This document shows, one piece after another, positions 15,487 through 32,401 of a stretch of 32,402 nt of DNA. The number at the start of each line of letters is the position of its first letter. Positions within the stretch are counted from its first letter, which is position 1. This DNA comes from Rubricoccus marinus (lineage in GTDB: Bacteria; Bacteroidota; Rhodothermia; Rhodothermales; Rubricoccaceae): assembly GCF_002257665.1 (NCBI RefSeq), contig NZ_MQWB01000001.1, forward strand, positions 249,482 through 281,883, written 5' to 3'. The position numbers were made by a program, and so were the translations under genes. Under the pieces are notes generated by a model, which was given only the letters and a program-made list of their open reading frames with translations, was not told where the DNA came from and made no database searches.

Positions 15487-15888
15487 CTAGAACGCGCCCA
15501 GGATGGCGCCCGCGATGGTGTAGTACGCGACGTGGTAGCCCGCGTCGATGGCGAACAGCGCGAACGGCTTCTGCGAGAACAGGTACGTCACGCCCATCGC
15601 CGTGGCCACCCACGCGGCGCCGATGCCCAGCCCCGTCAGCGCGCCCGACCCCGTGGTGGTCTCTGGCGGCAGGAACAGCGCCAGGACCACGACGGCAATG
15701 ATCTGGAGCGCCAGCGCGCCGCCGTAGGTCGCGGCCATGTTGGCGCTCTGAATCTTCTCGTCGGTGACGCCGGAGAGCGCCTGCCATCGCTTCCCAAAGA
15801 GGAGCGGGCCGTACCACACGGCGCCGAGCGCGAACGCCGAGGAGGAGGCGACGAAAACGGCGATCCAGTTGACAGAGGAGACGTCCAT
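15487..15888 (-). CDS. DUF1761 membrane protein
   Basis: This 133-residue protein matches DUF1761: VNWIAVFVASSSAFALGAVWYGPLLFGKRW at the N-terminus (given here only as pattern), then GVTDEKI, and about four hydrophobic helices, including LQIIAVVVLALFLPP, GIGAAWVATAMGVTYLF and a final YHVAYYTIAGAILGAF. Function is unknown for the family. The stop is 12 bp from the stop of the convergent STAND gene. The start at 15888 leaves a 150-bp divergent region to the photolyase gene. There is one 9-bp repeat copy near 15660. Confidence 0.85.
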   Translation of the reverse strand: MDVSSVNWIAVFVASSSAFALGAVWYGPLLFGKRWQALSGVTDEKIQSANMAATYGGALALQIIAVVVLALFLPPETTTGSGALTGLGIGAAWVATAMGVTYLFSQKPFALFAIDAGYHVAYYTIAGAILGAF

Positions 15889-16038
15889 GTCCGATCCGGG
15901 AGTGAGCCCTCAGCCTACGAGGCGCGCGCGCCAGAGGCCAGATGTGCGCGCGTGTGTCACCGGGCGATCCCTGCTCCTGCGCCTCTGGCGGAACGCCGCG
16001 CGGGCCGCGCGATCCAACCCGCCCCTCCGCACACGCCC

Positions 16039-17610
16039 ATGTCCGCGCCCGTTCTCTGGTGGCTCAAGAAAGACTTCCGCCTGGCGGACAACCCCGCGCT
16101 GATGGCGGCCTTGGACGCGGGCGAGACCGTGCTCCCCGTCTTCCTCTTCGAGCCCGCGTTGCTGGAGGCCGAGGAGACGAGCGCCTTCCACGTCGCCGCG
16201 TGGTGCGAGGCGCTGACTGACCTGCGCCAGAGGATCCCCGTCCTCTGCCTCCGCGGCGACGCGCCAGAGGCGCTGGAGCGGCTGCGCGACGCCACGGGCT
16301 TCGCCGAGATGCACTCCCACGAGGAGGTCGGGAGCAGCGTCACGTTCGAGCGCGACAAGGCCGTCGCAGCCTGGGCGCGGGTCTCTGGCGTGGCGTGGCA
16401 CGAGCACCGGCAGACGGCGGTTTTCCGCGGCGGGCTGGACCGCAACAAGCGCTCGGCGCTCTGGAACGGGTTCATGAAGGAGACGCCTCTGGCGGCGCCC
16501 GGAGATGCCGACCTCGCGCGGATCGTCGTCTCGCCCCAGGCCGAGGCGTTGCAGATGGCCGAGCCTTTGGCGCCCGAAGCCTTCGGGCACCCGCTGGCCG
16601 ACGCGCAGGCCGAACTCCGCCAGCCCGTGAGCGAGACGGCGGCGCACGACACGCTCACCGATTTTCTCACCGCCAGAGGCAAGTGCTACTCGGGCGGCAT
16701 CTCGTCGCCCAACCTCGCCTTTGTGTGCGGCTCGCGGCTCTCGGTCCACCTCGCGTGGGGCACGCTGACGGGCCGCCAGGCCTACGCCGCGACGCTTGCG
16801 CGCATCGCGGAGGTCAAAGGCATCGAGTCGCCAGAGGCGAAGCAGTGGAGCAAGTCGCTGCGCAGCTTCAAAAGCCGTCTGCACTGGCGCGACCACTTTA
16901 TCCAGCGCCTCGAATCCGAGCCGCAGATGGAGTTCACGCCGCTCAACCCGGCCTACGAGGACCTCCCGGCGCCTGGCGACGAGCACCTCGACGCATGGCT
17001 CGAAGGCCGGACCGGCTGGCCGCTCGTGGACGCGTGCATGCGCTGCGCCGCCCAGACCGGCTTCCTCAACTTCCGCATGCGCGCGATGGTGACCAGCGCG
17101 GCCGTCCACAGCCTCCGCATCGACTGGCGCAAAACGCTCTACCCGACCGCCCGCCTCTGGGCCGACTACGAGCCCGGCATCCACATCGCGCAAACGCAGA
17201 TGCAGGCGGGCGTCGTCGGCATCAACCAACTCCGCGTCTACTCCCCCAACAAACAGCTCTCCGACCACGACCCGGAGGCCGAGTTCGTGCAGCGCTGGGT
17301 ACCAGAGCTCGCGGACACCCCGCCCGAGGCCATCCTCAAGCACCACGAGCGGCCTCTGGCGGACTACCCGGCGCCCCTCGTGGACTGGTGGGCGAACTCG
17401 AAGGAGATGAAGGCGGACTACTACGCCATCAAGGGCACGCCAGAGGCCAAGGCCCACGCCGAGCGCGTCTACGAGCGCCACGGCTCGCGCCGCCACGCCT
17501 CCAGCCGGACGTGGAAGAGCAACGTCGGCCGCGTCTCGAAAAAGACGGGCCCGGCGAAGACGAAGAAGGCCACGCTGCCCCACTCGCTCCCGCTCTTTCC
17601 CGACGAGTGA
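16039..17610 (+). CDS. Cryptochrome/photolyase family flavoprotein
   Basis: This 523-residue protein has an N-terminal photolyase alpha/beta domain (LWWLKKDFRLADNPALMAAL, LPVFLFEPALL) at ~1-130. The C-terminal FAD-binding domain (~240-480) shows HWRDHFIQRLE, GRTGWPLVDACMRCAAQTGFLNFRMRAM, a pattern close to the canonical 'TG-PLVDA-MR-L--TG-N-R-R', and YSPNKQLSDHDPEAEFVQRW. The usual GNWQW flavin-site motif is replaced by HIAQTQMQAGVVG. This points to a cryptochrome-like branch rather than classic class I photolyase. Either blue-light DNA repair or light sensing is possible. The C-terminus is basic (KKTGPAKTKKA). ATG 16039 begins directly at the first beta-strand. The second photolyase gene lies 383 bp downstream. 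Several 9-bp repeats fall in the linker between domains. Confidence 0.9.
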   Translation: MSAPVLWWLKKDFRLADNPALMAALDAGETVLPVFLFEPALLEAEETSAFHVAAWCEALTDLRQRIPVLCLRGDAPEALERLRDATGFAEMHSHEEVGSSVTFERDKAVAAWARVSGVAWHEHRQTAVFRGGLDRNKRSALWNGFMKETPLAAPGDADLARIVVSPQAEALQMAEPLAPEAFGHPLADAQAELRQPVSETAAHDTLTDFLTARGKCYSGGISSPNLAFVCGSRLSVHLAWGTLTGRQAYAATLARIAEVKGIESPEAKQWSKSLRSFKSRLHWRDHFIQRLESEPQMEFTPLNPAYEDLPAPGDEHLDAWLEGRTGWPLVDACMRCAAQTGFLNFRMRAMVTSAAVHSLRIDWRKTLYPTARLWADYEPGIHIAQTQMQAGVVGINQLRVYSPNKQLSDHDPEAEFVQRWVPELADTPPEAILKHHERPLADYPAPLVDWWANSKEMKADYYAIKGTPEAKAHAERVYERHGSRRHASSRTWKSNVGRVSKKTGPAKTKKATLPHSLPLFPDE

Positions 17611-17611
17611 G

Positions 17612-17628
17612 GCCTCTGGCGCCAGAGG
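17612..17628. repeat. 9-bp word palindrome after the first photolyase
   Basis: GCCTCTGGCGCCAGAGG begins 2 bp after the stop codon; the position is typical of a hairpin placed at a transcript end. Confidence 0.75.
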
Positions 17629-17655
17629 GGTGGGGGGCTGCGGTGATGCGAGGCA

Positions 17656-17900
17656 ACCCCCTGAAAAACGCGCCTGCAACGGCGGTTTTTCTGTCCCCCT
17701 CAAGAGAGGGACAGGTGACACCGAGCGGTGGGCAGAACGTTTTGGCACAGCGACTCTTACGATTCAGATCTGAACTGTCCCCGCTTTGAGGGGGACAGAG
17801 AACGCGACGCCGTGCCGCCCACTCAACGCGCCGGCCCCCACCCCTCCCTTGAGGGTGGAGACGGAGCACCGCCCCGAGCGTTCTCAGGGGGTTCTACCCC
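17656..17900. repeat. Inverted pair of bipartite double-hairpin elements
   Basis: The 383-bp gap between the two photolyase genes is mostly this element. The reverse-oriented half (17656-17714) has ACCCCC, then a hairpin GAAAAAC-g-CGCC/GGCG-GTTTTTC (17663-17691) and a palindrome CTGTCCC...GGGACAG (17691-17714). The forward half starts with CTGTCCCC...GGGGACAG at 17775-17798. A degenerate continuation with CACCC...GGGTG (17840-17858) and a CGCC-containing hairpin ends in AGGGGGT near 17891. About 60 bp separate the halves. The same parts recur at 20730-20788 and 31921-32089 with different but self-complementary arms. Confidence 0.7.
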
Positions 17901-17993
17901 GCCGCGCGCCGAGCCCGCCCCTCTGGCGCCCGAGCCTGCCCCGTATCCCTCCGCATCCCGGCGCGCGAACGCGCGCACATCCCTCCTCACCCC

Positions 17994-19460
17994 ATGGACG
18001 CCCTCGACGCCCTCCGCCTCCGCACCCGCCGCCTGACGGAGACCCGCACCGCCGCCGACGGCGACTACGTGCTGTGCTGGCTCATGCAGGCCCTCCGCGC
18101 CGAGGAGAACCCGACGCTCGACGCCGCCATCGCGCTGGGCAACGCCAGAGGTCTGCCGGTTGTCGTCGTGCACACGGTGGAGACGGCATACCCGTACGCG
18201 AGCCACCGCCTGAGCCGGTTTATGCTGGAGGCGAGCCGCGAACTGGAAGCGGGCATCGAGGCCCGTGGCCTCCGGTTCGTGCGCTACGTGCGCCGGGCCT
18301 CTGGCGAGCCGACCGTCGAGGCCGTGGCGCGGCTGGCGGAGCGCGCCGCGACGGTCGTGCTGGACGACATCCCGACGTTCGTGACGCGGACCTACGCCGA
18401 CTACCTCGCCGCGCACATCTCGCGCGAGGTCCTGGCCGTCGACGCCTGCTGCGCCGTGCCGATGAACGCCTTTCCCGAGCCTCTGGCGACGACCAAGGCG
18501 TTCCGCGCCGCGCACACCACACTCCGCGACGACCATCTCGGCCTCGACCTCCGCCAGAGGCCGGACGTGGGCGCCTTCACCGGCGACCTCGACATCGTGC
18601 AGACGCCTCTCGCGGACCTCGACGCCAGCGGCCTGGACGCGCTCTGCGCCGAGCAGGGAATCGACATGACGCTCCCGCCCGTCGAGCGCTGGAGCGGGAG
18701 CCGGGAGGCAGCGCTGGAGCGGCTGCGATTCGCGGTCGAGAACGTGCTCGAACGGTACAAGTGGACGCGCAACAACCCGGCGCTGGAAGACGCGAGCGCC
18801 GAGATCTCGCCGTGGATGCACTTCGGCCAGCTGAGCCCGCGCGAAGTCGCCGAAGCCGTGCTGCACGCCGAGGCCTCTGGCGACGTGCATCCCGCCGCAC
18901 GATGGAAGTTTCTGGACGAGACGCTGACGTGGCGCGAGTACTACCACCACCGCTGCCGCACCGTCCCGGGCTTCTCCAACTGGAGCGGCCTACCCGAGTA
19001 CGCCCGCAAGACGATGCAGGCCCACGCCGACGACCCGCGCCCGCAGATCTACAGCGTGGACGAACTCCTCCACGGCGAAACCGACGACCCGCTCTGGAAC
19101 GCCGCGCAGAAGCAGTTCCTCCTGGACGGCTGGATGAACAACAACCTGCGGATGTACTGGGTCAAGCAGATCCTCAAGTGGCGTCCCACGCCCCAGGACG
19201 CCTGGGCCACGGCCTGCTACCTCAACGACCGCCTGAGCTACGACGGCCGCGACGCCTCCACCTACGGCGGCATCCGCTGGGGCTTCGGCGAGGCCAAGCC
19301 GTACGACGAGCAGCCCATCTACGGCACCGTCTCGCGCAAGACGAGCGCCGCGCTCATGAAGCGTCCCGGCATGCGGGAGTGGATGGAACGCGAGGCCTCT
19401 CGCGGCACCTACCGCGTGGACGTGCCCGAGGAGCCACCGGAGTTCGAGCGATACTTGTAG
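17994..19460 (+). CDS. Class II-like deoxyribodipyrimidine photolyase
   Basis: This 488-residue protein has class II features. The N-terminal domain has DYVLCWLMQALRAEENPTLDAAI and GLPVVVVHTV (class II pattern 'yVlYWmq-a-Ra--N-AL--Ai'). The FAD domain has ISPWMHFGQLSPREVAEAVL, LDETLTWREYYHH, and LWNAAQKQFLLDGWMNNNLRMYW, followed by VKQILKWRPTPQDAW. The C-terminal DGRDASTYGGIRWGFG and IYGTVSRKTS correspond to the class II 'RDPNGY-G--W--G' block. It would use blue light and reduced FAD to split cyclobutane pyrimidine dimers in DNA in the cytoplasm. The start ATG 17994 gives the expected short N-terminal helix. It differs strongly from the preceding cryptochrome-like gene, so the pair is not a recent duplication. 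Five or so 9-bp repeats lie inside. Confidence 0.9.
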   Translation: MDALDALRLRTRRLTETRTAADGDYVLCWLMQALRAEENPTLDAAIALGNARGLPVVVVHTVETAYPYASHRLSRFMLEASRELEAGIEARGLRFVRYVRRASGEPTVEAVARLAERAATVVLDDIPTFVTRTYADYLAAHISREVLAVDACCAVPMNAFPEPLATTKAFRAAHTTLRDDHLGLDLRQRPDVGAFTGDLDIVQTPLADLDASGLDALCAEQGIDMTLPPVERWSGSREAALERLRFAVENVLERYKWTRNNPALEDASAEISPWMHFGQLSPREVAEAVLHAEASGDVHPAARWKFLDETLTWREYYHHRCRTVPGFSNWSGLPEYARKTMQAHADDPRPQIYSVDELLHGETDDPLWNAAQKQFLLDGWMNNNLRMYWVKQILKWRPTPQDAWATACYLNDRLSYDGRDASTYGGIRWGFGEAKPYDEQPIYGTVSRKTSAALMKRPGMREWMEREASRGTYRVDVPEEPPEFERYL

Positions 19461-19486
19461 GGATGCGGTGGGAGGTGGCCGCGCAG

Positions 19487-19504
19487 GCCTCTGGCGCCAG
19501 AGGC
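19487..19504. repeat. 9-bp word palindrome GCCTCTGGCGCCAGAGGC
   Basis: Perfect 18-bp palindrome 26 bp after the photolyase II stop. Confidence 0.85.
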
Positions 19505-19535
19505 GAACCGGTTTGGACCGCCTGCCAACCCCGAG

Positions 19536-19625
19536 GGTGTCATCGCGAGCGAAGCGCGGCGATCTCACGACGCCGAGCGCAGACCCAGCAGATCGCCACG
19601 TCGCTGCGCTCCTCGCGATGACACC
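19536..19625. repeat. 90-bp imperfect inverted repeat (GGTGTCATCGCGAGCG family)
   Basis: Left end GGTGTCATCGCGAGCGAAGC with GCGGCGATCT, right end AGATCGCC with GCGCTCCTCGCGATGACACC. The two ends are complementary over ~30 bp with a few mismatches. Repeats of the type 'GTCATCGCGAGCGAAGC...' are scattered in many bacterial genomes. Only one copy is in this window. Confidence 0.7.
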
Positions 19626-19641
19626 GGATTGGAGCGTCGTC

Positions 19642-19887
19642 CTACTGGCCGGCGGCCTCTGGCGCCCCCCGGTTGTCCACGACGCCGCGCACGTTCGTGA
19701 CCGCGAGGAAGACCTGAAGCGCGACCAGCGCCCAGGCCGCGTCGTGTACGCCCCAGACGACCCAGAGCACATTGGAAACGAGGAAAAGGCCGAAGCCCCA
19801 CAGGCGGCGCCGCTGCGCGTCCGACGCGACGAGCCAGCCGCTGGCGACGGTGACGGCCATGGCAGGCCATTGGAGGAGATCAAGCAT
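19642..19887 (-). CDS. Small three-helix membrane protein
   Basis: This 81-residue protein consists almost entirely of three hydrophobic helices: LLQWPAMAVTVASGWLVA, RRLWGFGLFLVSNVLWVVWGV and AWALVALQVFLAVTNVRGV. A short charged loop, SDAQRRR, sits between the first two, and it ends in a polar tail. The SNxLWVxWG pattern and size recall half-transporters of the SemiSWEET or PnuC type, but I cannot assign it. It probably sits in the inner membrane. ATG 19887 gives a start directly before helix 1; the frame is open far upstream, over the divergent gene, and is rejected there. It is divergent from the ZIP-like gene (57-bp gap). Confidence 0.65.
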   Translation of the reverse strand: MLDLLQWPAMAVTVASGWLVASDAQRRRLWGFGLFLVSNVLWVVWGVHDAAWALVALQVFLAVTNVRGVVDNRGAPEAAGQ

Positions 19888-19944
19888 GAGAGGCGAGAAG
19901 AGAAGGGGCGCATTGGTGCCGCCAGAGGCGAGTAGGTTCCAGCC

Positions 19945-20676
19945 ATGCCCGCCCTCTTGCCGCTCTCGCTCGCGATTGCCCTGGCCGCCATCCACGTGTT
20001 CGGCTGGCGGCTGCGTTTTCTGAGCGTGCTCCCGCGCAGCGCGTGGCTCTCGTTCGCCGGCGGCACGTCGGTCGCGTACGTGTTCGTGCACCTCCTGCCC
20101 GAGATGGCGGCGCTCCAGGAGGCGCTCGCCGAGCGGGTCGCCGGGTTCGAGCTGTTCGAGGCGCGTCACGTGTGGCTTCTGGCGCTGGCGGGGCTCGTCG
20201 CGTTCTATGGGCTGGAGCACCTCGCCTCGCGCTCGCGAGAGGAGGGCCAGGACGAGGCAATGGACCGCACCGGCGCAGGCGTCTTCTGGGTCCACATGGC
20301 GAGCTACGGCGTCTACAACGTGCTCGTGGGCTACCTCCTCGCGTGGGGCGAGAGCCGCACGACGAGCGGCGTGCTCCTGTTCGCCCTCGCGATGGCGTTC
20401 CACTTCGTCGTCAACGACACCGGCCTGCGGCACGACCACAAGGAGCGCTACCTCCACGTCGGGCGGTGGCTCCTGGCGGGTGCCGTCGTCCTGGGCTGCG
20501 GCCTGGGCTTCGTGACTGAGGTGAGCGAAGCGACCATCGCGGCGCTGCTGGGCATCCTCGGGGGCAGCGTGATCCTGAACGTGCTCAAGGAGGAACTCCC
20601 GGAGGAGCGCGAGAGCCGGTTCTGGCCCTTCCTCGCGGGCGCGGTCGCGTACTCCGCGCTGCTGCTGCTGGTCTGA
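19945..20676 (+). CDS. ZIP-like integral membrane protein
   Basis: This 243-residue protein has about eight hydrophobic helices. The second carries SVAYVFVHLLPEM, like the HxxPE segments of ZIP metal transporters. Later come ASYGVYNVLVGYLLAWGE, FHFVVNDTGLRHDHKERY and GGSVILNVLKEELPEERESRFWPF. Histidines and acids within helices (HLLPE, FHFVVND, GLRHDH) fit a metal-transport fold. Classic ZIP paired motifs (HNxxEG) are not all visible, so I call it ZIP-like only. Inner membrane. A cytosolic acidic loop (SRSREEGQDEAMDRTG) separates helices 3 and 4. The start ATG 19945 is close to a TAGGTTCC stretch at 19933. The coding part has no 9-bp repeat, and one starts after the stop (20678). Confidence 0.7.
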   Translation: MPALLPLSLAIALAAIHVFGWRLRFLSVLPRSAWLSFAGGTSVAYVFVHLLPEMAALQEALAERVAGFELFEARHVWLLALAGLVAFYGLEHLASRSREEGQDEAMDRTGAGVFWVHMASYGVYNVLVGYLLAWGESRTTSGVLLFALAMAFHFVVNDTGLRHDHKERYLHVGRWLLAGAVVLGCGLGFVTEVSEATIAALLGILGGSVILNVLKEELPEERESRFWPFLAGAVAYSALLLLV

Positions 20677-20729
20677 GCCTCTGGCGGGGCGCCGCGCCCT
20701 CTCGGTCTGCGCGTCGCCCTCGATCGAAA

Positions 20730-20788
20730 CTGTCCCTCTCTTCGAGGGGGACCGTTCAACCGCCGTTCAGGCGAGTTGAACAGGGGGT
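20730..20788 (+). repeat. Bipartite double-hairpin element, forward half
   Basis: Palindrome CTGTCCCTC...GAGGGGGAC (20730-20752), then hairpin GTTCAAC-CGCC, loop GTTCA, GGCG-a-GTTGAAC (20754-20781) and the tail AGGGGGT (20782-20788). The arms differ from those at 17663 and 32052 yet remain complementary. Confidence 0.75.
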
Positions 20789-20846
20789 GGGTGCGCCTAG
20801 CCGCAGACCCGCCTGAGGCTCTTGGCGCCAGAGGCAAAAAGCATTT

Positions 20847-20881
20847 CCTCCTCCCCAGCCGGGGGAGGCTGGGAGGGGAGG
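20847..20881. repeat. CCTCCCCAGCC / GGCTGGGAGG hairpin
   Basis: CCTCCTCCCCAGCC, GGGGG, then AGGCTGGGAGGGGAGG: a strong imperfect hairpin in the 288-bp gap before pgm. There is one copy here. It could be a terminator for the ZIP-like gene or a further REP-like family. Confidence 0.5.
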
Positions 20882-20891
20882 TTCAGAATCA

Positions 20892-20909
20892 CGCCAGAGG
20901 CCTCTGGCG
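20892..20909. repeat. 9-bp word in tail-to-tail palindrome CGCCAGAGGCCTCTGGCG
   Basis: Perfect 18-bp palindrome 56 bp upstream of the pgm ATG. Confidence 0.85.
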
Positions 20910-20964
20910 GTGGAACCGGGCGTAGAATCTCTCTATCCCTCTGAACCCTGACGCACTCCGACTC

Positions 20965-22647
20965 ATGCCCCTCGATCCCCTCGCCGGACAGCCCGTCCCC
21001 GCCGACCGCCTGCCGGACATCCCGGCGCTCGTCGACGCCTACACCTCTCGCACGCCCGACCCCGAGAATCCGGCCGAGCGGGTGACGTTCGGCACGAGCG
21101 GGCACCGCGGGTCGTCGCTGGATGGGCGGTTCAACGAGGCGCACATCCTGGCGACGAGCCAGGCGCTGGCGGAGTACCGCCGCGAGGCCGGAATCGACGG
21201 GCCGCTGTACATCGGTATCGACACGCACGCGCTCTCGCGGCCCGCGTTCGAGACGGCGATGGAGGTGTTCGCGGCCAACGGCGTGACGGTCGTGATTCAG
21301 GAGGGCGACGGGTTCACGCCCACGCCTGCGGTCTCACACGCCATCCTCGCGCACAACGGGGCCTCTGGCGGAACAGCCTCTGGCGCCAGAGGCGCGGGGT
21401 CAGGACCGGCTGACGGAGTGGTCATCACGCCGAGCCACAACCCGCCCCAGGACGGCGGCTTCAAGTACAACCCGCCGACGGGCGGACCGGCGGGCGGCGA
21501 CATCACGGGCCCGGTGCAGAACCGCGCGAACGAACTCCTGCGCGGCGGGCTACGCGAAGTGAAACGCGTGCCTCTGGCGAAGGCTCTCGGAGCCGACACC
21601 ACGCACACCGCCGACTTCGTGCGGCCCTACGTGGACGGCCTCGCGGACGTGCTGGACATGGACGCGATCCGCGCGAGTGGCCTCAAGATCGGCGTGGACC
21701 CGATGGGCGGCGCGGCGGTGGCCTACTGGGCGCCCATCGCGGAGACGTACGGGCTGAACATCGAGGTGGTCAACGAGGTCGTAGACCCGGCCTTCGGATT
21801 TATGCGGCTGGACCGCGACGGCAAGATCCGGATGGACTGCTCGTCGCCCTACGCGATGGCCGGCCTCGTGGAACTGCGCGACCGCTTCGACATCGCGTTC
21901 GGCAACGACCCGGATGCGGACCGCCACGGCATCGTCGCGCCATCCTCGGGCCTGATGAACCCGAACCACTACCTCGCGGTCGCCATCGAGTACCTGTTCA
22001 CGCACCGACCGGGCTGGTCCGAGGCCGCAGCGGTGGGCAAGACGCTCGTCTCGTCCAGCATGATCGACCGCGTCGTCGCGAGCCTGGGGCGGCCTCTGGC
22101 GGAGGTGCCGGTCGGCTTCAAGTGGTTCGTGGACGGGTTGCTCTCGGGCAGCTACGGCTTCGGCGGGGAGGAGAGCGCGGGCGCCTCGTTCCTGCGCAAA
22201 GACGGCACGGTCTGGACGACCGACAAGGACGGCCTGCTCCTCGGGCTTCTCGGTGCCGAGATCACCGCCGTCACGGGCCGCGATCCGGGCGAGCGCTACG
22301 CCTCGCTCGAAGAACGCTTCGGCTCCCCCGTCTACGCCCGCATCGACGCGCCCGCCTCGCGCGAGCAGAAGGCGGTTCTCGCGGACCTCTCGCCAGAGGC
22401 CGTCGACGCTGAAACGCTCGCGGGCGACGCGGTCACGGCGAAGCTCACGCGCGCGCCGGGCAACAGCGCGCCCATCGGCGGCCTCAAGGTCACGACCGCG
22501 AACGGGTGGTTCGCCGCGCGCCCGTCCGGGACGGAGGACGTGTACAAGATCTACGCGGAGAGCTTCCGCGGGGCCGACCACCTCGCGCGGCTCCAGGCGG
22601 AGGCGCAAGAGGTGGTGCAGGGCGCGTTCGCGAAGGCGGGGGTGTAG
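20965..22647 (+). CDS. pgm: Alpha-D-phosphoglucomutase
   Basis: This 560-residue cytosolic enzyme interconverts glucose-1-phosphate and glucose-6-phosphate. It aligns along its whole length with my recollection of E. coli Pgm (546 residues): [19 protein letters not shown] near 38, catalytic loop TPSHNPP with phospho-Ser157, Mg-binding DPDADRHG, sugar-binding [12 protein letters not shown] and phosphate-binding [12 protein letters not shown] near the C-terminus. Compared with E. coli there is one clear extra piece of about 11 residues just before the catalytic loop (residues ~133-147, bases 21361-21405). It reads Gly/Ala/Ser/Arg-rich and is encoded by three copies of the 9-bp repeat. Catalytic Ser is 157 here versus 146 in E. 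coli, which matches the insertion size. ATG 20965 gives the expected N-terminus ([11 protein letters not shown]). Confidence 0.96.
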
Positions 22648-22706: not shown

Positions 22707-22896
22707 GTAGGGGCGTATCGCATACGCCCTCCAGGATGCCACGGCCTCTGGCGACACCGCCCATGCGTTCGGCCCTGACGCCAGAGGCTTGGTACGGGAT
22801 ACGTTCCCGAGTGCCGCGGCCTCTGGCGGCTCGGTGTCGCACCAGAGGCCCCTGGACGGGGCGCCGGGGTGGGGGGCGTATGCGATACGCCCCTAC
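22707..22896 (+). repeat. Left ~190-bp inverted repeat with REP ends, flanking the RAYT
   Basis: Both ends are REP palindromes: GGGCGTATCGCATACGCCC (22710-22728) and its reverse form at 22874-22892. Between them lie landmarks CAGGATGCC, four copies of the 9-bp word, GGCTCGGTGTCGC and GGGGCGCCGGGGTGGGG. The same landmarks occur in the same order on the other strand at 23442-23633. It ends 3 bp before the RAYT stop codon. Confidence 0.85.
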
Positions 22897-22898
22897 GG

Positions 22899-23423
22899 TT
22901 ACATGCGGTGTCCGTCGCGGCGCGTGGCGTCGAGGCCGTGCCACCGCGAAGGGTTCTCGGCGATGTACTGGCGGACGTGGTCGGCCTCGCGCTCCGTGCG
23001 GACGACGCGGTCGAAGAACCCCCGTTGCCAGACCGGCCCGACCTCGCGGCCTTCGCGATCCCAGACGGCGCGCGTGACGGCGCCCTTGTAGCCTCGCACG
23101 ATCGACGCCGCATTCGCCGACGGCGACCGGAATCTCCGCTCGGACCCTTGCTCGCCAGAGGCCTCTGGCGGGAGGAGGGCGAACAACAGGTGGACGTGGT
23201 CAGGCATCACCACGAAGGCGTCCAGGATGCACGTCGGCCGAACGTCCTCGGTGCGGATCCATTCCGCGTGCGCGATGTCGCCGAGTGGTGAGCGGAGCAT
23301 TTCACCCTCCTCCACATCCCCGAACAGCCTCTGGCGCCGGTGCGTGCAGATCGTGATGAAGTAGAGGCCGTCTGCATAATCGTGCGTTCGAAGGCGGACA
23401 GATCGGCGGTCTCGAAACGGCAT
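22899..23423 (-). CDS. REP-associated tyrosine transposase (RAYT, Y1_Tnp)
   Basis: This 174-residue protein belongs to the Y1/HUH transposases. The N-terminus RRSVRLRTHDYADGLYFITICTHRRQRLFG is the RAYT signature (shown in part). The HUH motif is MPDHVHLLF with His76 and His78. The catalytic tyrosine is Tyr153 in DHVRQYIAENPSRW, after WQRGFFDRVVR. Such enzymes nick and rejoin single-stranded DNA at REP sequences and are thought to spread or maintain them. Here REP palindromes flank the gene within 3 bp (stop side) and 19 bp (start side). A Pro-Pro-Glu-Ala-Ser-Gly stretch (85-90) comes from the 9-bp repeat, so that repeat has also entered this gene. ATG 23423 is chosen because it begins just before the conserved RRS. 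All catalytic residues are intact, so it could be active. Confidence 0.92.
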   Translation of the reverse strand: MPFRDRRSVRLRTHDYADGLYFITICTHRRQRLFGDVEEGEMLRSPLGDIAHAEWIRTEDVRPTCILDAFVVMPDHVHLLFALLPPEASGEQGSERRFRSPSANAASIVRGYKGAVTRAVWDREGREVGPVWQRGFFDRVVRTEREADHVRQYIAENPSRWHGLDATRRDGHRM

Positions 23424-23441
23424 GCCGTAGGGTACAAACCC

Positions 23442-23633
23442 GTAGGGGCGTATCGCATACGCCCCCCACCTCGGCGCCCCGCCCAGGGGCCTCTGGCGCA
23501 ACACCGAGCCGCCAGAGGCCGCGCATGCGGAAACGCATTACATACGGGCCTCTGGCGCTGGACCGGACGGCGCGGTTGGAGTCGCCAGAGGCTGCGGCAT
23601 CCTGAGGGAGGGGCGTATGCGATACGCCCCTAC
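23442..23633 (-). repeat. Right ~190-bp inverted repeat with REP ends
   Basis: Inverted copy of 22707-22896. The REP palindromes are at 23445-23463 and 23611-23629, with CAGGATGCC, GGCTCGGTGTTGC and GGGGCGCCGAGGTGGGG landmarks on the minus strand. The ends are nearly identical; the middle has diverged. This and the following 105 bp account for the 315-bp gene-free stretch before the M28 peptidase. Confidence 0.85.
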
Positions 23634-30282: not shown

Positions 30283-30416
30283 CAGGAGAGGGGGTGGTGG
30301 GACCAGCGACGCCGATGCGAGCGCTTGTAGCGCCGCCGGGTGGCGGTCGCGCGGATGGCGGAGCGGCGCCTCTGGCGCAAGAAGCGAGTGAGCGAGGAGA
30401 ACGGGAGGACGATCAT
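30282..30416 (-). CDS. Possible 44-residue basic protein between ligase and DHH gene
   Basis: ATG 30414-30416 overlaps the ligase TGA as ATGA, and the ORF stop overlaps the DHH start as TGATG. The ORF therefore fills the gap exactly with two coupling overlaps. The product is strongly basic (RFLRQRRRSAIRATATRRRYKRS, shown in part) after a hydrophobic start MIVLPFSSLT, and it includes a 9-bp repeat copy reading Leu-Arg-Gln-Arg. It has no family that I know. The overlaps could be chance in such GC-rich DNA, or could be a re-initiation bridge rather than a functional peptide. Confidence 0.35.
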   Translation of the reverse strand: MIVLPFSSLTRFLRQRRRSAIRATATRRRYKRSHRRRWSHHPLS

Positions 30417-32401
30417 GGGCTCTCGCCAGAGGCGTGTTGGGAGGTGTAGATGGCGCGGACGGTCTCGACGGTGTCGACCTCGGAGGCGGGCTTGTCCGGC
30501 CGGAGGCGCACGATGCGCGGGAAGCGGAGCGCGAAGCCGCTTTTGTGACGCTTGGACTCCTGGACGGCGTCGAACGTGACCTCGATCACGATCTCGGGCT
30601 CGACGACGCGCACGCGGCCGTGGGCGAACTGCTGCCGCGTGTGCGCCTTGAACCACTCGGTCAGCTCTTCCAATTCGGCGTCTTTGAGCCCGCTGTACGC
30701 CTTGCCGACGTTGACGAGTTCGGGGTCGCTTTCGGACCGGCGCACGGCAAACGTGAAGTCGCTCAGGTACTTCCGCCGCCCCCCGCTGCCGACCTCGACG
30801 CTGGTCACGACGACATCCAACGTGGCGAGGGCGCGCTTGATCTTGAGCCACTCGCGCCCGCGGCGCCCGGGGCGGTAGGTGGAGTCCAGCCGCTTCACCA
30901 TGAGCCCCTCGTTGCCTCTGGCGCGGGCGTCCTCGAACGCGGCGTCGAGCGCGGCCACGTCGTCCATGACCGTCACGCGCGAGGCGTGGAGCGGCGCCGC
31001 CAGAGGCAGGGCGTCCAGGCGCCTCTGGCGCTCCGAAAGCGGCTCGTCGAGGTGGAGGTCGCCGTCGGCGTAGAGCACGTCGTAGGCGACAAAGGCGACG
31101 GGAAACTCGTCGAGGACGGCCTGGGGGGGCTTTTTGCGGCCGAGCCGTTTCTGGAGGCTCGCGAACGGCGCCACGCGCAGGGCGTCCTCGCCGGGCCAGA
31201 CGGGAACGATCTCGCCGTCGAGCACCAGTCCGCGCGGGCTCGCTGCCGCCAACGCCGCCAGAGGCTCTACCAGGTCGGGGAACTGCCCGGTGTTCTCGTC
31301 CAACGTGCGCGAGAAGAGGGCGACGCGCGTCGGCCCGGCGGGGCCTTCGACGATCTGGCCGTGCAGCGTCTCGCCATCGGGGTCGCCAGAGGCCTCTGGC
31401 GTGCGCGCAGCCTCGGGCGCCAGAGGCGCGATGTGTGCCTGGGCGCGGATGCCGTCGTACTTGTCCTCCACGGCGAACGTCTCGGGCATGAGCCGCGCGA
31501 CCTCGGGCGCCGGGTCTTCGCCGGGAGCGGACTCGGCGGGCGTGGCGAGCATAAACGTGATGGGGTGGAACAGCGCGAACGTGGCCTCGCCCAGCCGGTC
31601 CTGCCGCGCGAGGACGGCGGTTTCGCCCAGGTCGCCCGTCAGCATGTGCGCGCGGCGGACGGCGCCGGCCTCGCGCTCGAACGTCCGCGCAAGCGCGGCC
31701 TCCACGCCGCCCTGGAGCAGCCCGATCCGCGTCTCGCCCGCGAGCAGCTTGACGAGAAAGCGGGCCTCTGGCGGGGAGAGCGTGCCGAGCATCGCGCCGG
31801 TTTTCTCGGTCCGCGCTTTCGACCCGCGCGTGGCGGCGAGGTCGGCGAAAAAGGAGGCCGCATCCGCGAGGCTGAAGCCGCTGGCGCCAGAGGCTCCGGG
31901 CGCCGAGGCGTCCTGAGCGTACCCCCCGCGTTGCTCCCCTTCGGTCGCAACGCTGTCCCCCTTGACAAGGGGGACGGTCACATCTCGCTCGTCTGCACTC
32001 GCGGAGTCGCCAGAGGCTGAATCTGAACTGTCCCCCTCGGGGAGGGGGACAGATCCAACCGCCGTTTCAGGCGCGTTGGATCGGGGGGTAGGCCCGTCGC
32101 CAGAGCTCATCGCCCCGCCAGAGGCCAGCGCGTCGTGCGCGAGGTCGCCGGGGTCGCCTAGCTGGACGAGCCTCTGGCGGAGCGCGTCGGGCTCGGCGCC
32201 AGAGGCGGCGGCGATGGCGTTCAGGAGGGCGCTGTGGCCGACGCCCACGGTCCGCTGGTCCGCGAGGGGAAACACGCGGCCGGCGGCCCACCGCGCGGCG
32301 CGGCGGAGGTCGGCGTCGCCTAGCTCGCGCAAGAGGCCGCCGAGCAGGTCGGCTTTGGCGTTGCGGCCGCTCTCGTCCGCGATGGCGGCGAGCGTGTCGG
32401 C
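30413..32401 (-). CDS. ATP-dependent DNA ligase (5' partial)
   Basis: The frame is open to the right edge (residues ADTLAAIADESGRNAKADLLGG precede the visible TTG at 32332, given in part), so the N-terminus is missing. The enzyme seals nicks in DNA with ATP. The N-terminal helical domain has LAGxVFP-like AAGRVFPLADQRTVGVG. The catalytic motif I is EDKYDGIR (Lys codon 31460-31462). Later motifs are LDGEIVPVW, FPVAFVAYDVLY, EGLMVKRLDSTYRPGRRGREWLKIKR (in pieces) and a C-terminal OB domain. Two repeat-built inserts are visible. One is a ~100-residue low-complexity stretch in the N-terminal domain, which carries a complete bipartite hairpin pair (31921-32089). The other is a ~22-residue stretch just after motif I (31370-31437). 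Neither breaks the frame. The stop is coupled to the 44-residue ORF by ATGA. Confidence 0.92.
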   Translation of the reverse strand, partial: ADTLAAIADESGRNAKADLLGGLLRELGDADLRRAARWAAGRVFPLADQRTVGVGHSALLNAIAAASGAEPDALRQRLVQLGDPGDLAHDALASGGAMSSGDGPTPRSNAPETAVGSVPLPEGDSSDSASGDSASADERDVTVPLVKGDSVATEGEQRGGYAQDASAPGASGASGFSLADAASFFADLAATRGSKARTEKTGAMLGTLSPPEARFLVKLLAGETRIGLLQGGVEAALARTFEREAGAVRRAHMLTGDLGETAVLARQDRLGEATFALFHPITFMLATPAESAPGEDPAPEVARLMPETFAVEDKYDGIRAQAHIAPLAPEAARTPEASGDPDGETLHGQIVEGPAGPTRVALFSRTLDENTGQFPDLVEPLAALAAASPRGLVLDGEIVPVWPGEDALRVAPFASLQKRLGRKKPPQAVLDEFPVAFVAYDVLYADGDLHLDEPLSERQRRLDALPLAAPLHASRVTVMDDVAALDAAFEDARARGNEGLMVKRLDSTYRPGRRGREWLKIKRALATLDVVVTSVEVGSGGRRKYLSDFTFAVRRSESDPELVNVGKAYSGLKDAELEELTEWFKAHTRQQFAHGRVRVVEPEIVIEVTFDAVQESKRHKSGFALRFPRIVRLRPDKPASEVDTVETVRAIYTSQHASGESP
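31921..32089. repeat. Inverted pair of bipartite double-hairpin elements inside the ligase gene
   Basis: The reverse half has ACCCCCC, hairpin GCGTTGC (31928-31934) / GCAACGC (31947-31953) and palindrome arms GTCCCCCTTG / CAAGGGGGAC (31955-31975). The forward half has CTGTCCCCCTC / GAGGGGGACAG (32028-32052), hairpin GATCCAAC-CGCC / GGCG-c-GTTGGATC (32052-32082) and GGGGGGT. The 52-bp spacer contains a 9-bp repeat and TCTGAA just before the forward half, as at 17768-17774. Confidence 0.8.

Follow-up and report, generated by a model that had tools for sequence, protein, structure and literature searches.

The window analysed here, a stretch of 32.4 kb (32,402 nucleotides; G000:C1:249482-281883) from the 4.43 Mb, 15-contig genome of Rubricoccus marinus, raises the question of what maintains a palindromic repeat whose copies have unrelated arms and a single shape. 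Inspection of the sequence found five CTGTCCC…GGGACAG palindromes at three sites, designated element A, half-element B and element C, and the arms of each half are variable yet complementary. A sequence-only reading of the same DNA had proposed a unit of palindrome, second hairpin and RGGGGGT. The arms and palindromes it quoted are present as stated, and 17656-17900 holds one whole element (17656-17892), but the unit is larger, being an inverted pair that runs from ACCCCC to GGGGGT.

Architecture and distribution of the family

From the core outward, each half consists of AGGGGGACA, a hairpin and RGGGGGT. The full sites A and C are inverted pairs, with the architecture ACCCCC – hairpin – core – spacer – core – hairpin – GGGGGT. 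The features of the window are as follows, read from the sequence unless another basis is given.

17656-17892, unstranded: element A, complete, with two cores; ACCCCC at 17656-17661, AGGGGGT at 17886-17892
17663-17691, minus strand: left hairpin of A, CGCC/GGCG class, arms GAAAAAC/GTTTTTC
17691-17714, unstranded: core palindrome 1 of A (exact core pattern)
17715-17774, unstranded: spacer of A, 60 nt, with TCTGAA at its 3' end
17775-17798, unstranded: core palindrome 2 of A (exact core pattern)
17798-17885, plus strand: right hairpin of A, 8-bp arms GAGAACGC/GCGTTCTC and a long loop (sequence and DNA fold)
20730-20788, plus strand: half-element B, comprising core, CGCC/GGCG hairpin (arms GTTCAAC/GTTGAAC) and AGGGGGT
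30413-32332, minus strand: ATP-dependent DNA ligase, the host ORF of C (reading frame uninterrupted across the element)
31921-32089, unstranded: element C, complete, with two cores; ACCCCCC at 31921-31927, GGGGGGT at 32083-32089
31928-31953, minus strand: left hairpin of C, GACCG..GGGGA class, with a GA/GA mismatch, arms GCGTTGC/GCAACGC
31954-31976, unstranded: core palindrome 1 of C
32028-32052, unstranded: core palindrome 2 of C, with TCTGAA just before it (sequence and exact core pattern)
32052-32082, plus strand: right hairpin of C, CGCC/GGCG class, arms GATCCAAC/GTTGGATC

No left half was recognised at the site of B (20730-20788), and C lies in frame within the ligase ORF. The CGCC/GGCG hairpin core that had been described as common to the copies is found at 17663, 20754 and 32052 but not in the other two of the five halves, the hairpin at 31928 being of the GACCG..GGGGA type and the right hairpin of A having 8-bp arms around a long loop. 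Likewise, TCTGAA does precede the second core of both inverted pairs, but their spacers measure 60 and 51 nt rather than roughly 52-60. The elements are bipartite and around 100-240 nt in size. Element A is situated between two neighbouring genes of the photolyase/cryptochrome family (15532-17610 and 17994-19460). The window also contains 139 occurrences of GCCTCTGGCG/CGCCAGAGGC, in both genic and intergenic positions (e.g. 17612-17628 and 21361-21392); there are 182 in 49 kb elsewhere in the same genome, two in 26 kb of G001, and none in the stretches taken from G004, G006, G007, G008, G017 and G029. This is a species-specific highly iterated palindrome, like HIP1 of cyanobacteria.

Further copies, as that reading requires, were found both in G000 and in other genomes. 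In G000 there are eight occurrences of the exact core pattern, against none for the reversed control, and a covariance model trained on seven halves gave 46 matches at E <= 1, representing roughly 15 sites, since many overlap or hit one core in reverse. At E <= 0.01 the model matched eight of 60 genomes, G000 included, and none of the other 52; in two of the eight (G024 and G030) the matches resemble other palindromes. Sites with the exact-pattern core number 20 in G029 (plus one chance match), 13 in G017 and 14 in G005. The strict exact pattern was confined to G000 among the 296 genomes searched across the phylum; hence the strict form is rare. An exact-core scan of 84,980 species genomes returned 82 stretches, and of the 80 cores read from them 35 are bounded on both sides by RGGGGGT and 17 on a single side, the 28 lacking such an end within 75 nt not being counted as members. 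Those with core and RGGGGGT come from Rhodothermales, Prolixibacteraceae (e.g. Draconibacterium), other Bacteroidota, Zixibacteria and metagenome-assembled genomes (MAGs). The sister species G001 and G039 are without the family, and the element was not found in the viral contigs, plasmids and phages searched. A literature search by core sequence brought up no title on bacterial repeats, and one by topic, with most subscription papers outside its reach, returned nothing on the family.

Two forms of the element exist. In G000 most have two cores, the inner flanks of which are often TTCAGAT and ATCTGAA, with single-core copies also present (e.g. at 634870), while G029, G017 and most of the copies examined from distant lineages have a single core common to both hairpins. 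In Draconibacterium and its relatives (L102-L181), a few modules, CTTCGAAGAAG, CCGTCAAYTGACGG and CCGATTTATCGG, recur in the apical stem-loops of different copies, as though they had been shuffled. Another palindrome, CCTCCCCCTGTCCCCCTC..GAGGGGGACAGGGGGAGG, without GGGGGT ends, is common to Deltaproteobacteria, Planctomycetes and Brocadiaceae MAGs (L103, L108, L113, L115, L119, L124, L126, L138, L140, L141, L152 and L166), and repeated CTCCCCCTTGCCAAGGGGGAG...GGAGGGGGT units in G030 (L030, L038) may be distantly related, with a core of another kind.

Arm covariation and the folded molecule

The claim that the arms covary was upheld in four genomes. When the 7 nt after the core were compared with the 7 nt before the end motif, with identical arm pairs counted once and partners shuffled within one genome, a procedure that removes kinship among copies only in part, complementarity out of seven was 6.00 observed against 3.46 shuffled in G000, 5.90 against 3.41 in G029, 5.08 against 2.96 in G017 and 3.94 against 2.53 in G005 (0/10,000 shuffles in each case). 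The signal was weaker in Prolixibacteraceae (3.89 against 3.54; 106/10,000), where the outer stem is just ~3 bp. Arm pairing fell from 0.82 to 0.24-0.33 when the partner was shifted by 1-3 nt, and one copy (1171567-1171621) represents a point intermediate, its arms GCGTTGC/GCAAAGC having a single mismatch. A constraint on shape is shown. We rejected the idea of one arm sequence common to both ends: the left and right arms resemble each other no more than shuffled pairs do and, if anything, less, so the two hairpins of an element are distinct.

Whole elements fold well as single-stranded DNA, with z values of -6.4 for C, -6.1 for A, whose two cores pair together, and -6.4 for a G029 copy that gives a clean cloverleaf; none of 200 shuffles was equally good in any of the three. 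The predicted fold is multi-armed and closed by pairing between ACCCCC and GGGGGT. An Rfam search of the window gave no matches at the gathering score.

The mismatches that remain in the stems are strand-specific. On the strand running from core to end, G·T outnumbers A·C by 19:3 in G029 (0/2000 shuffles) and by 15:4 in G017 (likewise 0/2000), a bias absent in G000 (3:2) and G005 (11:11). A GA/GA mismatch just inside the arms is present in 47 of 123 stems, with no instance of TC/TC; it is found in six of the seven groups and recurs across phyla. The two halves lie on opposite strands, such that a single transcript could not favour both, and among halves between co-directional genes those in sense and antisense orientation are alike, both in the ratio of G·T to A·C (12:2 and 11:1) and in the frequency of GA..GA (12/20 and 11/18). 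Transcripts are therefore unlikely to be the folded molecule, although RNA from both strands may be. The best reading of these sequence patterns is that single-stranded DNA folds and would be selected at the level of the element.

Insertion sites, retention and candidate enzymes

When the context of 44 elements was determined with a rough gene caller that relies on GC at third positions, 24 were found between co-directional genes, nine between convergent and two between divergent genes, six were intragenic and three, at edges, were undecided. Empty sites, which the sequence-only reading had proposed to look for, were found in relatives for all three positions in the window: A is absent from the matching interval of G006 and G007, B from the matching site of G001, and C from the ligase of G001, G004 and G007. 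These comparisons are at the distance of genus or family only, and the boundaries are inexact because the aligned gaps exceed the elements in size. No direct repeats of 4-8 nt, indicative of target duplication, were present at any of the 66 elements checked. Both ends have the same base after GGGGGT, and which base it is depends on the lineage: G005 has G (21/21), Prolixibacteraceae A (30/31), AUK196 T (12/12) and G029 C (32/37).

At three orthologous sites, both of the species compared carry an element. G029 and G017 share one ahead of the same gene, probably purF to judge by its start, MSVRDHCGIFGI, and G003 and G017 share another between the same two genes; in both cases the hairpins differ almost entirely. 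At the third, in D. sediminis and D. mangrovi (Draconibacterium), the flanks are nearly identical and one apical stem-loop has been replaced as a unit. Two of these sites have thus been kept in place across genera or families, which long retention fits as well as mobility does. The sequence-only reading had held structure to be 'selected or copied'; given a strand-specific, transcription-independent fold and the replacement of a whole hairpin at one site, it is probably both.

That reading had also seen no transposase tied to the family, and this is borne out. The window does contain a RAYT gene (22899-23504, minus strand; NCBIfam NF047646, E 3.7e-21, 75.6 bits against a cut-off of 80), but its flanks carry other repeats. 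An inverted repeat (84 nt, 95%) with the GTAG repeat GTAGGGGCGTATcgcATACGCCCC encloses the gene (22815-23523), and the G001 interval matching this locus is about 1 kb shorter. None of 53 fetched loci encoding Y1 transposases was flanked by the element, within a set defined by the Pfam model, beyond which further genes are possible. Y1 transposases are present in genomes with and without the element, and weaker Y1 genes occur elsewhere in the G000 genome. The Pfam search for Y1 found none in G017 and G003, but, run genome-wide, the same search missed the RAYT of the window, so these absences are not proof. RAYT homologues are present in G001 and G006, both of which lack element matches, and this speaks against a simple dependence on RAYTs. 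IS110 transposases are absent from G003, G005, G017 and G029. At one locus in Zixibacteria, a related core lies near a RAYT that has its own GTAG repeats, and in the Prolixibacteraceae genomes G063, G065, G067 and G069 there are open frames of approximately 1,170-1,330 aa with a partial Y1 match, possibly fusion proteins.

Interpretation and comparison with known systems

On balance we lean towards a REPIN/BIME-like, non-autonomous repeat with two inverted ends, recognised by shape as folded single-stranded DNA through a putative trans-acting factor. Folded as a single strand in the model, the element has end runs that can pair and close a cloverleaf. Each end may then be recognised as a folded single DNA strand by the trans-acting factor, most likely a nuclease or transposase; the arms would be free to change if shape, and not arm sequence, is what is read, and whole hairpins would occasionally be exchanged between copies. 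Here the factor, the movement and the mechanism of exchange are what we infer. It is conceivable, though doubtful, that the elements constitute a new class of mobile repeats defined by shape, in which some enzyme besides RAYTs recognises the ends, on opposite strands, in the form of folded single-stranded DNA, while copies stay in place and renew their hairpins by whole-unit exchange.

The largely intergenic, rarely divergent positions and the survival of two sites, fold intact, across genera or families would also suit an extragenic palindrome used by the host, whether as a 3'-end stabiliser of RNA, a bidirectional terminator or a protein-binding chromosomal site, kept by selection and immobile today. 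We consider this unlikely: the folding bias is equal in sense and antisense halves, albeit a transcription-independent site would still fit, there is no T run, a terminator scan of 17600-21000 found two weak sites against a shuffle mean of 1.0, one copy lies within a DNA ligase ORF, and sister species do without the family. It seems rather improbable that the element is a second class of REP that the genome's own RAYT mobilises in trans, although the element does not flank the RAYT gene. The RAYT in the window, the weaker Y1 genes elsewhere and the similar geometry of inverted pairs are in its favour, as is the precedent that RAYTs may act on more than one family of repeats and that those of Bacteroidetes can have atypical repeats (PMC6006769); however, the RAYT in the window has GTAG repeats on its flanks, no fetched Y1 locus is flanked by the element, and G001 and G006, which have RAYT homologues, are devoid of element matches.

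The complementarity itself might be a mutational by-product, if template switching at hairpins, a process known for quasi-palindromes generally, had perfected the arms independently of selection. The stem-loop replaced in one step at one site is what such events would leave, and they may act alongside selection; neither the excess of G·T over A·C nor the conserved GA/GA mismatch is predicted by them, making this very improbable as the full account. Least credible of all is a classical MITE, derived by deletion from a DDE transposon whose terminal inverted repeats would be ACCCCC/GGGGGT. The inverted ends and the lineage-specific next base common to both are as expected, but there is no target duplication of at least 4 nt in 66 elements, the arms differ widely among copies, and no longer, ORF-bearing copy was met. 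Hence the proposed label of a BIME/MITE-type family is apt for a dispersed, BIME/MITE-like repeat, but does not extend to the classical MITE, with its target-site duplication and near-identical copies.

The family has a wider use, as a set of natural replicates, with unrelated arms and one shape, for studying what maintains palindromic repeats in bacteria. Strand-specific mismatches point to folded single-stranded DNA, and orthologous sites show the replacement of hairpins. The enzyme, if found, would reveal a second route, in addition to that of RAYTs, by which REPIN-like DNA spreads.

Among known systems, MITEs of DDE transposons share the terminal inverted repeats (ACCCCC...GGGGGT) but not the lack of target-site duplication, and intrinsic terminators differ in that the hairpins here are followed by G runs and not by a T run. 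Integron attC sites are single-stranded hairpins with conserved structure and variable arms, as are these when compared by eye, but the elements form no cassette arrays and consensus boxes were not noted. Rickettsia palindromic elements are palindromes found inside genes with the frame kept, as C is; the present family is mostly intergenic, bipartite and unrelated in sequence. The cyanobacterial SDR4-SDR6 repeats of Elhai et al. 2008, reportedly 21-27 nt long with a common secondary structure and compensatory changes, are similar in the latter two respects and in that the host genome is rich in a HIP-like iterated palindrome, although elements of ~100-240 nt in two parts are quite unlike them in size.

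The REP, BIME and REPIN sequences associated with RAYT (TnpA-REP) transposases are short, mostly extragenic imperfect palindromes, dispersed, non-autonomous and arranged as inverted pairs (PMC2817692, PMC3116915, PMC6006769). Our tests found the same dispersed, mostly extragenic short imperfect palindromes in inverted pairs; occasional in-frame intragenic copies, non-autonomy and the lack of a visible target duplication are further likenesses. By contrast, there is no GTAG-type tetranucleotide 5' of the hairpin, the conserved ends being ACCCCC/GGGGGT and AGGGGGACA; the G-run ends (GGGGGT) are 3' on the folded strand, whereas the REP tag is 5'; a separate core palindrome is present; the arms are hypervariable between copies; and no RAYT is flanked by the element (0/53 Y1 loci). 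As the family lacks two defining features of a RAYT system, the tag and the linked gene, we do not file it as a REPIN/BIME member. Nevertheless, REPIN/BIME is what it appears to behave most like, and a RAYT/HUH-type enzyme, though none was found linked to the element, is the nearest analogue in geometry.
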